Origin: Odontesthes bonariensis
Taxonomy: Eukaryota; Chordata; Actinopteri; Atheriniformes; Atherinopsidae
Length of the DNA stretch: 64,000 bases
Reading direction: 5' to 3'
Assembly: GCF_027942865.1 (NCBI RefSeq)
Contig: NC_134509.1
Location: 24,486,697-24,550,696, forward strand
Shown here: one piece after another, positions 50,401 through 59,400 of the stretch
How positions within the stretch are numbered: position 1 is the first letter of the stretch
Layout: each line of letters begins with the position of its first letter
The notes under the pieces: model-generated
Seen by the model: the letters and a program-made list of their open reading frames with translations, nothing else
Told to the model about the DNA's origin: nothing
Databases searched by the model: none
Made by a program: the position numbers and the translations under genes

Positions 50401-53400
50401 ACTGCAACACTAATATTTATTATTCAATTAAGAAATATCAGCTCATCTTGAATTTGACGGCAGCAACACGTCTCAAAAAAGTTCACCACTCCCCTCTTCT
50501 TCTAACAACATCTGTAAACATCTGGGAACTGAGGAGACCAGCTGCTGGACCTTTGGAAGAGGAATTATGTCCCATTCTTCTCCAATAGGATTGTAGTTGC
50601 TCAGAAGTTCTGGGTCTTCTTTGATGTATTTTAAATGTTTTCAGGTGGTGAAAGCTCTGGACTGCAGGCAGGTCAGTCCAGCACCTGGACTCTTCTACTA
50701 CGAAGCCATGCTGTTGTTTCGGTTTAACATTGTCTTAATGAAATGTCTAAGGTCTTCCCTTAAAAAGATGTCTGGATGGGAGCATATGTTAGTCTAAAAC
50801 CTGTAAGTACCTTTCAGCATTGACGGAGCCTTCCCAGATGTGCAAGCTGTCAGTTCTGGAGGCACCAAAACACCCCCATACCATCAGAGATGCAGACTTT
50901 TTAACTGAGCGCTGACAATAAGCCAGATGGACCCTCTCCTCTTTAGTTAGGAGGACAGGGCGTCCATGATTTCTTAAAAAGAAATTTAAACTTTGATTAA
51001 TCTGACCACAGAACAGTTTTCCACTTTGCCTCAGTCCATTTTAAATGAGCTTTGGTCCAGAGAAAACGACAGCGTTTCTGGATCATGTTCACATGTGGCT
51101 TTTTCTCTGCATGACAGAGCTTTAACCTTCATATGTGGGTGGGAGGTGAGCTGTGTTCACAGACAATGATTTCTGGAAGTGTTCCTGAGCCCATCCAGTG
51201 ATTTTCAGGACAGAATCGTGTCTGCTTTCATGCAGAGCGCCTGAGGGCCTGAAGATCAGGGGCATAGAGTATTGATTCTCATCTGTGTCCCCTGCACTCA
51301 GAGATGTCTCCAGATTCTCTGAGTCTTTTGGTTATGTTTTCCACTGTCGTCGGTAGAATATTCAAAATCCCTATATTGAAGAACATTATTCTGAAATTGC
51401 TCCACAAGTTGTAGACACAGTTTATTTTTTTGCTGATTGCTGATCCTCACACGTGCAAACGCGCTGCAAACGCCGAAACAAATCCAACAATAAAATGCTG
51501 CAAGAGAAAAATGCGGCAATAACAAAAACGACCGGAGCACACGCGCTGCAAACATCAAAACACATGCAAGACAGAAACGCTGCAAACTTCAAAACATGCA
51601 AGAAAAAAATGCGCAGCAAACCCCAAAACACATGCAAGACAGAAACACTGCAAACTTCAAAACACATGCAAGAAAAAAATGCGCAGCAAACCCCAAAACA
51701 CATGCAAGACAGAAACACTGCAAACTTCAAAACACAACGGAAGTTCGCCAGGCCACTAGGCGGTCTCGACCTGTGGGATAGGGGATCGACTATGGGAGAT
51801 CTACCATATTAATGAAAGAGAAGAAAGTCAAAAGGTATGTTGTCATTTATGTCTTTTTTAAACACTTGGCCGTAATCTTTTGCCTTATTATAGAAGAGCA
51901 GCGGAGTTATGTCTCTATAATAAGGCAAAAGATTACGGCCAAGTGTTTAAAAAAGACATAAATGACAACGTACCTTTTGACTTTCTTCTCTTTCATTAAT
52001 ATGGTAGATCTCCCATATATCCCCTATCCCACAGGTCGAGACCCCCTAGTGGCCTGGCGAACTTCCGTTGTGTTTTGAAGTTTGCAGCGTTTCTGTCTTG
52101 CATGTGTTTTGATGTTTGCAGCGCGTGTGCTCCGGTCGTTTTTGTGATTGCCCCATTTTTCTCTTGCAGCATTTTACTGTTGGATTTGTTTCGCCGTTTG
52201 CAGCGCGTTTGCGCGTGTCGGCCATCGTAGTTTTGCAAGGCTGAAAATCGAAACTTAATCGAGCCAATCAAATCGTGAGGAGCGGGGTTGGAGGCCGGGC
52301 TACCTAGTGACGACAGAGGTGCGACGTTTCAGTGTGTAGTTCCAGAGAGAGGTAAACAATGGCTGCGCCCAGCGAACAGTCTTTCGAGTTGGCTTTGGCA
52401 GCGACTCTAGAAGATTTCAATATAAATTTTCTTTGCGAGACGGACAAATAACTGCACTTAAGTTTTTCTTGAAAAAAAAGGCCGTTTTCGGAGTTTTGCT
52501 CACCGGGTACGTTAAAAGTTTAATTTACCAGCTTGCTCTGTTGGTGGGACGACGCTCTGATTGGTTGTTGCCATCCTATTGCGTGGCGTTGAGAAAAGAG
52601 GCAACTTAAGAGACAATCGTTTGTCCCGCTCACACTGCTATCCAGCGTCACTAGACCCCTGTACAGCTTTTTGCTGTAGGGGTCTGGCTTGCTAGGCTAG
52701 ATCCTCTGCGCATCTTTATGTCTGAGAGACTCTGCCTCTCCATGGTGCTCTTTTTATATCCAGTCATGTTACTGACCTGTTGCCAGTTAACCCAATCAGC
52801 TACAAGATGTTTCTTCAGAAGTTTGATGTTTTAACACTTGCTTTTCCAGCCTTTTGTTGCCGCAGTCCCAACTTTTTTGAGACATATTGCTGCCATCACA
52901 TTCATCCGTCCTCTATATCCATCCATCTGTCAATCCATCCATCCACCAGGTGCCATTGGGTGAGAAGCAGGGAACAACATCCTGAACAAGTTGCCAGTCA
53001 ATCACAGGACCATCAAATTCAAAGTGAGCTGATATTTTCATCAAATAGCAAAATGCCTTACTTTCATCATTTTGAATGTTCTGTATGTTTTATTGTGAAT
53101 AATATATTGGTTTATGAAATTTCCAAACCATTGTATTCTCTTTTCATTTACATTTAACACAGTGTTTCAGTTTTTAAAGTAGAGAGTAAATGATTTAACA
53201 AATTTTTTTAGATTATTTTCAAACAAATGTGAATGAACTTACCTTCACATACAACACTGGCATCTTCCTGATGACCACAGTTGTGGACCCCAAACCCTGA
53301 GTGTCTGCAGTCTGTTATTGATGATTCGCTTCCAAAACATCTAACTTCATCCAACCAGATGGGTCCTCTGCCCTGTCCAAAAGCTGCACCTATTGGTGCT

Positions 53401-56400: not shown

Positions 56401-59400
56401 TGTGGCAGTGACATTGCTCATCACCTGAGTGGTAAAAGTTTGTGGTCTTGGCGTGGTTGGCAAAACTGTGCTGTTGATTTCTGGTAGAACTGAAAGAAAA
56501 TGTTTTCACTGTAAAAGCACAGTCAGCACTGCCATCAAAAAGAGTCCTCTTTATCAAAGCTCAATGTTTGTTTTATCACTGGGCACAAAACTCAATAAGT
56601 CACCATTTTAAGTGCACTTGATTAGTTGCGTTGTGAAACTGCAACACTAATATTTATTATTCAATTAAGAAATATCAGCTCATCTTGAATTTGACGGCAG
56701 CAACACGTCTCAAAAAAGTTCACCACTCCCCTCTTCTTCTAACAACATCTGTAAACATCTGGGAACTGAGGAGACCAGCTGCTGGACCTTTGGAAGAGGA
56801 ATTATGTCCCATTCTTCTCCAATAGGATTGTAGTTGCTCAGAAGTTCTGGGTCTTCTTTGATGTATTTTAAATGTTTTCAGGTGGTGAAAGCTCTGGACT
56901 GCAGGCAGGTCAGTCCAGCACCTGGACTCTTCTACTACGAAGCCATGCTGTTGTTTCGGTTTAACATTGTCTTAATGAAATGTCTAAGGTCTTCCCTTAA
57001 AAAGATGTCTGGATGGGAGCATATGTTAGTCTAAAACCTGTAAGTACCTTTCAGCATTGACGGAGCCTTCCCAGATGTGCACGCTGTCAGTTCTGGAGGC
57101 ACCAAAACACCCCCATACCATCAGAGATGCAGACTTTTTAACTGAGCGCTGACAATAAGCCAGATGGACCCTCTCCTCTTTAGTTAGGAGGACAGGGCGT
57201 CCATGATTTCTTAAAAAGAAATTTAAACTTTGATTAATCTGACCACAGAACAGTTTTCCATTTTGCCTCAGTCCATTTTAAATGAGCTTTGGTACAGAGA
57301 AAACGACAGCGTTTCTGGATCATGTTCACATGTGGCTTTTTCTCTGCATGACAGAGCTTTAACCTTCATCTGTGGGTGGCAGGTGAGCTTTGTTCACAGA
57401 CAATGATTTCTGGAAGTGTTCCTGAGCCCATCCAGTTTATTTTTTGCTGATCCTCTGCACATCTTTATGTCTGAGAGACTCTGCCTCTCCATGGTGCTCT
57501 TTTTATATCCAGTCATGTTACTGACCTGTTGCCAGTTAACCCAATCAGCTACAAGATGTTTCTTCAGAAGTTTGATTTTTGTACCACTTGCTTTTCCAGC
57601 CTTTTGTTGCCGCAGTCCCAACTTTTTTGAGACATATTGCTGCCATCACATTCATCCGTCCTCTATATCCATCCATCCATTCATCCATCCACCAGGTGCC
57701 ATTGGGTGAGAAGCAGGGAACAACATCCTGAACGAGTTGCCAGTCAATCACAGGACCATCAAATTCAAGTTGAGCTGATATTTTCATCAAATAGCAAAAT
57801 GCCTTACTTTTATCATTTTGAATGTTCTGTATGTTTTATTGTGAATAATATATTGGTTTATGAAATTTCCAAACCATTGTATTCTCTTTTCATTTACATT
57901 TAACACAGTGTTTCAGTTTTTAAAGTAGAGAGTAAATGATTTAACAAATTTTTTTAGATTATTTTCAAACAAATGTGAATGAACTTACCTTCACATACAA
58001 CACTGGCATCTTCCTGATGACCACAGTTGTGGACCCCAAACCCTGAGTGTCTGCAGTCTGTTATTGATGATTCGCTTCCAAAACATCTAACTTCATCCAA
58101 CCAGATGGGTCCTCTGCCCTGTCCAAAAGCTGCACCTATTGGTGCTGAACGAGCTCTTCCACAGCCCAGCTGTCTGCACACCACGTTGGCATCATTCCGG
58201 TCCCAGGAATCGTCACAAACCGTCCCCCACTGGCCACGGTGGAAGATCTCCACTCTGCCAGAGCAGCGGTTGTCAGAGTTAACCAGCCTCACTGGTGAGG
58301 CAGCTGAAATCAAAACAAGGGACACATTTATGTTGATGGGAGAAAACGTGGACTTCTCAGTTTAAAGATAGTTTTAGAAACCTGACAACAATTATTTTAT
58401 AAAAAGTTTTACAGTTTGTCTGTAGTTTACCTTCACAGACGACCCCAGCGTCCTCATTGTGACCACAATTGTGAGATCCAAACCCTTGATGGCGGCACTC
58501 TGAGAGCTGTGATTCGCTGCCGGTGCACATGACATCGTCTAACCAGATGGGTCCTCTGCCCTGTCCAAAAGTTGCACTTTGTGGTGCTGAGAGGACTCTG
58601 CCACAGCCCAGCTGTTTACACACCACCTGAGCATCATTCAGGTCCCAGGAATCGTCACAAACCGTCCCCCACTGGCCACGGTGGAAGATCTCCACTCTGC
58701 CAGAGCAGGAGCTGTTTCCTCCATTGGCCAGGCGGACCTGCCCCTCTACGTCTGTGCTGCTGTCTGCTGTTGTTGTGGCAGAGCTAGTAACAGTGGGCTC
58801 CGGTGTTGGATTTGACGTGGTCAAAGAAACTTCAGGATTTCCTCCTTTTACCTCTGTTCACAGTGAAACCAGCATTTTAATTATGCAAGAGCAATTAAAA
58901 ACGTTGTCTTTGAATTTAACTTTAAGATTGTGCAGATATTAGAATGTTCCATGAAATAAATAAATAAATTTGATGAGAAAAATTGATTTGTTCTAAAAGC
59001 ATAAAGATATGTGAAATCGAACAATACCTGTACAGTATGCGTAATGGCATGCGGGCGGTTTCTCAAGTTTGTAGACGTAGTAGTGTCCGTAACACAGTTT
59101 GACATTAATGGTGTGTGTGCCAAAATAACAGCAGGAGCCTGCCCAAGCGCCACACACGGTACGATTTACAATTCTATCTGACAGTGTGGGGTGAGGTTCT
59201 GAGATCCACAGGGGAGCATGGGTCCCACACCTGTTTTCAGCTACACATCTTTCTGGAATTTGAGCACTGGTGTGCCCCAGAAACATGCGATACCAGCCCT
59301 GCCAATTAACATTTTGATCACAGTGTAAAACACTATTGTTTGTGTTATTCGTTGAACGCCAGTCATCATCTAGTGGAGTGTAGTGCTCACAGGGATCAGC

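Follow-up and report, generated by a model that had tools for sequence, protein, structure and literature searches.

Change in SRCR copy number is already established for human DMBT1 (also SALSA, gp340 or salivary agglutinin), whose alleles carry 7-21 SRCR domains (PMC9038570), whose CNV1 mutates at a rate of 0.7-2.7% per generation (PMC4851238), and whose form with 8 SRCR domains binds less bacteria than the form with 13 (~20-45% in the abstract of PMC5435793, 30-45% in its text). Uromodulin (UMOD) is built as EGF I-III, D8C, EGF IV and ZP (PMC7737619). Here we describe what looks like the same kind of change in another gene, one that works like the repeat region of DMBT1 but is not DMBT1. 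It lies in Odontesthes bonariensis, on the minus strand of a stretch of 64,000 nucleotides (hereafter the window; C4:24486697-24550696, where C4 is contig NC_134509.1), and within it a 2,373-bp unit of two SRCR exons and introns stands twice in tandem with no difference between the copies. We think it probable that a single recent event of unequal crossing-over, between SRCR exon pairs within this gene, produced the identical pair.

An exact tandem unit in a predicted D8C-SRCR-ZP gene

Comparing the window with itself at an offset of 2,373 gives a single exact run of 3,050 bases (53066-56115 against 55439-58488). Such a run is far beyond chance, and it fits the initial annotation, which had placed repeating SRCR exon-pair units of 2,373 bp at 53050-58487. 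We call the exon pairs of this gene, copy 1, A (49.4 kb) to D (58.4 kb), and those of a sister gene described below A2 to D2. Pairwise alignment of units B and C covers 2,373 bases, introns included, with 0 substitutions and 0 indels; the annotation had noted no difference between two successive units in the stretches that it compared. The first mismatches beyond the exact stretch fall at 53065, on the intron A-B side and onward left to unit A, and at 56116/58489, onward right to unit D. An older unit was also said to differ by a few percent. Differ it does, by slightly less than that: A against B (taking 49379-53242 as the older unit) shows 36 substitutions over 2,372 aligned positions (1.5%), of which three fall in hard-to-align sequence next to a gap, together with four indels, and A is longer by ~1.5 kb of intron, which had gone unmentioned. 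Even-numbered SRCR exons are identical within B/C/D, within B2/C2/D2, and between A and A2.

The exact units sit within a predicted minus-strand gene that encodes a signal peptide, a uromodulin-type D8C domain, four pairs of SRCR domains (8 in all), and a ZP module. The model is a manual assembly of reading frames joined at AG/GT borders, predicted from sequence alone, and has a frame of 1,451 aa without an internal stop. Each SRCR domain has one exon, and 8/8 of these exons have AG/GT borders, phase 1-1, and a length of 423, 432 or 315 nt, all multiples of three, as the annotation had stated. There is one Thr/Ser-rich linker per pair, carried by the pair's first exon and so found before odd-numbered SRCRs only. 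The minus-strand orientation, the remaining parts of the gene, its sister past the window, and the end unit at 57989-58853 go beyond what had been annotated.

The proposed event is non-allelic homologous recombination, through which a gene of order A-B-D would have grown from three pairs to the four of A-B-C-D. A single crossover giving this order would have to fall in the 677 bp common to B, C and D, an interval that takes in one whole SRCR exon, the adjoining 127-bp intron and the end of the SRCR exon that follows, and the conserved coding SRCR module probably supplied the homology for the exchange. Two SRCR domains and one Thr/Ser-rich linker would be added. The frame would be untouched because every SRCR exon starts and ends in phase 1, which upholds the earlier argument that copy number can change without breaking the protein. 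We favor unequal crossing-over because one event accounts for the identical exons, introns and spacing, because one boundary pair (53065, 58489) suffices, and because the sister gene bears a diverged event of like kind.

What an added pair might do depends on the domains it brings. PF00530 (SRCR) scores above cut-off at 16/16 sites of copy 1 and the sister gene, and 8 cysteines are kept in 16/16 copies, which places them in group B. The dual cation site of SALSA SRCR8 comprises D1019, D1020, D1058, D1059, N1081 and E1086 (PMC7043408). When these positions are placed by gap-free spacing from TVCDD rather than by structural alignment, five of the six are invariant in 16/16 copies, and position 1059 is D, E or N. 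The SRCR domains thus look functional, so far as sequence can tell. At the dipeptide equivalent to SALSA 1044-1045, odd domains have IS, QN or QS, and even domains have HS, IG or IS. Of the nine amino-acid positions that vary within the SRCR parts (four in odd domains, five in even), 6/9 fall at equivalents of 1044, 1045 or 1059; we guess that 1044-1045 lie on the binding face. Between A and B the even exon shows 3.5 synonymous and 6.5 non-synonymous changes, too few for a dN/dS reading. The gene product is probably a secreted, microbe-binding protein. A pair gained would be expected to give each secreted ZP-domain molecule more cation-dependent sites for binding, and hence stronger multivalent binding; by analogy with DMBT1, each added pair probably raises the multivalent calcium-dependent binding of a ZP-polymerising secreted protein.

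Table 1. Features of copy 1 and its surroundings, in window numbering
Feature	Position	Strand	Details
Exact 2,373-bp periodicity, full extent (3,050-bp run plus one period)	53066..58488	.	self-match
677-bp stretch matching exactly in units B, C and D	53066..53742 (also 55439-56115, 57812-58488)		covers SRCR6 exon; putative exchange site
Unit D	57989..58853	-	SRCR1 58431-58853, SRCR2 57989-58303; Pfam SRCR E 1.2e-36, 2.7e-35; 423, 315 nt, phase 1-1
Unit C, 2,373 bp	55616..57988	-	SRCR3 56058-56489, SRCR4 55616-55930, intron C-D; SRCR above cut-off
Unit B, 2,373 bp	53243..55615	-	SRCR5 53685-54116, SRCR6 53243-53557, intron B-C; SRCR above cut-off
Unit A	49379..50252	-	SRCR7 49821-50252, SRCR8 49379-49693; SRCR above cut-off, gene model
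Insert in intron A-B, 1,251 bp	51449..52699	.	7-bp direct repeat GATCCTC at 51442-51448 and 52700-52706
Exon 1, predicted signal peptide	59640..59712	-	ATG, hydrophobic stretch, GT donor, phase 1
Exon 2, uromodulin-type D8C domain	59028..59483	-	Pfam PF23283 (D8C_UMOD) E 4.2e-30; AG/GT, phase 1-1
ZP module, exons ZP1-ZP5 and last exon	47476..49226	-	Pfam ZP-C (PF00100) E 2.2e-15, 2.6e-8, above cut-off
Tandemly duplicated segment, ~18.6 kb	45601..64226 (226 bases past window end)	.	sister segment starts 64227

Within the ZP module, ZP-N gives a weak Pfam match that stays below its cut-off (E 0.0069), and the ZP1 exon frame alone matched no Pfam family. Elsewhere on the minus strand of the window, the reading frame at 33596-34372 encodes a zinc finger of the Nanos family (PF05741, E 8.4e-25).

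A sister gene, intron states and exchange

SRCR matches run on past the window, where a second gene copy lies just outside, at 66-82 kb. The two genes belong to a tandem duplication: 45601-45800 is 96.5% identical to 64227-64426, the sequence left of the junction is 98.0% identical to 61039-61238, and at 64226/64227 upstream-type sequence is fused to 3'-type sequence. The sister gene runs from 81554 down to 66131 (window numbering, as throughout), with EGF and D8C in one exon, then 4 SRCR pairs and ZP. That its D8C exon carries EGF is judged by 99.4% identity to a stray EGF stretch at 62122-62451 (EGF_CA E 3.9e-7 there), which lies upstream of copy 1; copy 1 as modelled is without the EGF part. 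In the SRCR7 exon of the sister gene, a 1-bp deletion at 68891 breaks the frame, barring exon skipping or an error of the assembly at that base; the exon is flanked by phase-1 introns, so that skipping would leave the protein in frame. The scripted model of the sister gene omitted the SRCR8 exon, which was read separately, and is out of frame past the deletion. Upstream of copy 1, 62016-64226 has the appearance of a truncated 5' piece of a third gene copy, comprising the EGF stretch and a scrap of D8C; a second signal-peptide exon was looked for beside this piece and not found there.

The middle pair of the sister gene is duplicated too. Over 3,744 bp, 6 substitutions and one 8-bp indel separate B2 from C2, which points to a diverged event of like type next door. 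A2 and B2 differ by 23 substitutions in 3,749 and by three indels. Between copy 1 and its sister, divergence is highest in the 5' part, at 9.9% in the promoter, 7.3% in the signal-peptide exon and its intron, 5.9% in the D8C exon and 2.9% in the next intron. It then falls across the SRCR part, through 1.7% in pair D, 1.0% in pair B and 0.33% in intron A-B, to 0 substitutions (and one indel) in pair A, and rises again from 0.32% in ZP to 1.67% in the 3' flank. Such a gradient is not what a plain tandem duplication would leave, and it argues for conversion or repeated unequal exchange between the genes. Judged from these comparisons, sequence exchange between both genes is evident at the locus.

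The introns preserve a further record of the units. In copy 1, introns B-C and C-D have a common private state, with 222 bp missing, no insert, and 100% identity over 1,569 bp, and intron A-B is without it. The insert, which in intron A-B has in its left part 148-bp inverted arms at 51449-51596 and 52071-52218, is present in intron A-B and all three sister introns between two GATCCTC copies, and absent from B-C and C-D. Two dispersed relatives of the intron repeat (L039 and L040; best pieces 88% and 78% identical) cross the insert site without an insert. B-C and C-D thus probably keep the empty insert site and bear a separate 222-bp deletion. We also considered that these introns were shortened by losing the 1,251-bp insert; this is disfavored, with L039 and L040 insert-free and B-C about equally far from all four insert-bearing introns; other pairwise alignments put the gaps elsewhere. 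Intron B-C differs from the four other introns at 16-19 sites, as expected for a separate lineage of units, and the youngest duplication would seem to have copied an older intron lineage. On the sister side, introns B2-C2 and C2-D2 share a 208-bp deletion that is not in A2-B2.

Several repeats accompany these introns. A 34/70-bp tandem array lies at 51543-51736 within the A-B insert, and its length differs among introns. The intron at 54280-55281, like its equivalents in each unit, is dominated by a dispersed repeat with inverted ends that looks Tc1-like by eye; Pfam scans of the intron reading frames gave no transposase match. Finally, (CATC)n has 7-8 units in the sister introns (~71652, 75404, 79156) and 2 in copy 1.

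We searched the genome (945 Mb, 187 contigs) with the 1,569-bp intron, scoring the best 40 of 4,625 first-look candidates and obtaining at least 94 matches, 84 of them outside the array. Among the matches listed, there are two exact copies, both in the window; the near copies are the array's four other introns; and outside the array long matches reach at most 87%, and 88-90% is seen only over stretches of 40-51 bp. A haplotype contig was considered as the source of the duplicate and rejected, as neither a third exact copy nor an intron copy on a separate contig is among these matches.

SRCR domains themselves gave at least 110 matches, which we grouped into 25 places, this locus included; five D8C matches were found, two of them here. 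We compared 12 of the 24 other SRCR places with themselves (20 stretches; four of the 12 in part). Eight self-matches of at least 200 bp and at least 95% identity occur in 3/12 of them, and 4/8 overlap SRCR matches: on C15 at 97.0% over 602 bp, 22.0 kb apart; on C26 at 96.8% over 535 bp and 97.7% over 256 bp, ~18 kb apart; and on C14, where two SRCR exons 4.1 kb apart (3500337-3500651 and 3504458-3504772) are 98.4% alike over 315 bp. The C14 match is about exon length and hints at exon-sized conversion at another SRCR place, and exchange at other SRCR places of this genome is likely. The idea that near-identical SRCR copies are unique to this locus was therefore not borne out, given C14, C15 and C26; the long exact unit is seen only here among the 12 compared, none of which has an exact copy or a whole tandem unit.

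Origin and age of the identical pair

Several points weigh against a recent crossover. The copy number is that of one assembled sequence, and the gene is a predicted one. The 208-bp difference in the sister introns sits in the 34/70-bp tandem array, which is able to change length repeatedly, and it is weaker evidence than the intron states of copy 1. Taking 5.97e-9 mutations per site per generation, the mean for fish (PMC9995274), 0 differences in 2,373 bases would place the duplication within ~106,000 generations (95% bound; 84,000-144,000 over the rate's confidence interval) and the sister event at ~134,000, but this dating assumes a clock and no conversion, and the counts weakly favor B/C being younger than B2/C2 (Poisson P 0.022, Fisher P 0.088). 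One assembly error repeating one period would, moreover, look alike. The true allele would then have three pairs (A-B-D), one period having been inserted twice. Zero differences in 2,373 bp is what such an error would leave, and the collapsed A-B-D order gives a perfectly consistent gene. We nonetheless regard an error as unlikely, since the exact stretch totals 5.4 kb and ends in a distinct unit D, so that ordinary long reads would be expected to span it, and since no N lies within the 124 kb inspected, the intron has its two exact copies here and no near copy outside the array among the matches listed, and the sister gene bears a diverged duplication of similar sort.

Whole-unit gene conversion could likewise give equal identity, without a change in copy number, if four pairs pre-existed and a recent overwriting made C a copy of B, or B a copy of C. 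Copies evidently do exchange sequence at this locus, with the inter-gene divergence dropping from the promoter to pair A and climbing again to the 3' flank, and the even SRCR exons identical within B-C-D and within B2-C2-D2, as well as the C14 exons, also speak for this account. Overwriting B or C entirely is more demanding: it needs a tract or tracts covering at least 2.4 kb without leftover difference, while a crossover needs one event, and we consider this account improbable. It is conceivable that purifying selection keeps old copies identical, given that the SRCR exons are coding, yet the 1,569-bp intron, largely dispersed repeat, is identical too, while intron B-C differs from the other four introns. 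Intron identity refutes this explanation, to which we give almost no credence.

Unequal crossing-over in copy 1 therefore remains the account that we prefer. In the simplest history, each gene independently duplicated its middle unit, the copy 1 event being the younger, and the best reading of the locus as a whole is one of repeated homogenization. The initial annotation had offered three origins. Very recent tandem expansion is the best supported; exchange is visible, between the two genes; and a false duplication by the assembly is, in our view, unlikely.

D8C-SRCR-ZP genes and known systems

By SRCR similarity the gene is like the multi-SRCR group B receptors WC1 and CD163, and its best solved-structure matches are CD163 (M130) chains, although single-domain chains of DMBT1 also match strongly (6sa5, E 3.3e-42). 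WC1 and CD163 are membrane receptors and are not known to carry a ZP module. Like uromodulin and GP2, it has a D8C domain N-terminal to ZP, and the sister gene probably has EGF besides D8C; unlike UMOD, it has SRCR domains, none being named for UMOD in the available part of PMC7737619. At the level of titles and the starts of abstracts, in coverage that leaves out most subscription journals, we recognised no published fish SRCR gene with D8C or ZP.

If the duplication is real and polymorphic, rapid gain and loss of SRCR domains would also occur in a different gene, of D8C-SRCR-ZP type, in another vertebrate lineage. The diverged event of the sister gene offers a built-in comparison for rates, and the sharp exact unit is easily typed by PCR. 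A bolder picture, which we offer tentatively and think more likely wrong than right, is that the two adjacent genes form one recombining system, in which each gene independently went from 3 to 4 pairs, sequence is exchanged between genes, and unit differences cluster at the binding face. The array would then be a fast-evolving, length-polymorphic, specificity-shuffling and microbe-binding one, separate from that of DMBT1.

The comparison with DMBT1, drawn already in the initial annotation, carries over for the mechanism and not for the gene itself. Unlike DMBT1, this gene has an N-terminal D8C (plus EGF in the sister), and it has no room for an extra SRCR or for the CUB domains that stand between SRCR array and ZP in DMBT1, with the SRCR8 exon ending at 49379, ZP1 starting at 49226, and a 152-bp intron between them; CUB is likewise not among the matches listed at the locus (best 150 of 322 candidates scored). 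In DMBT1 one SID linker stands between successive SRCRs, whereas here there is one linker per two SRCRs. What the two genes share is tandem group-B SRCR domains with 8 cysteines, Ser/Thr-rich linkers, a ZP module at the C-terminus, and, probably, change in the number of whole units.

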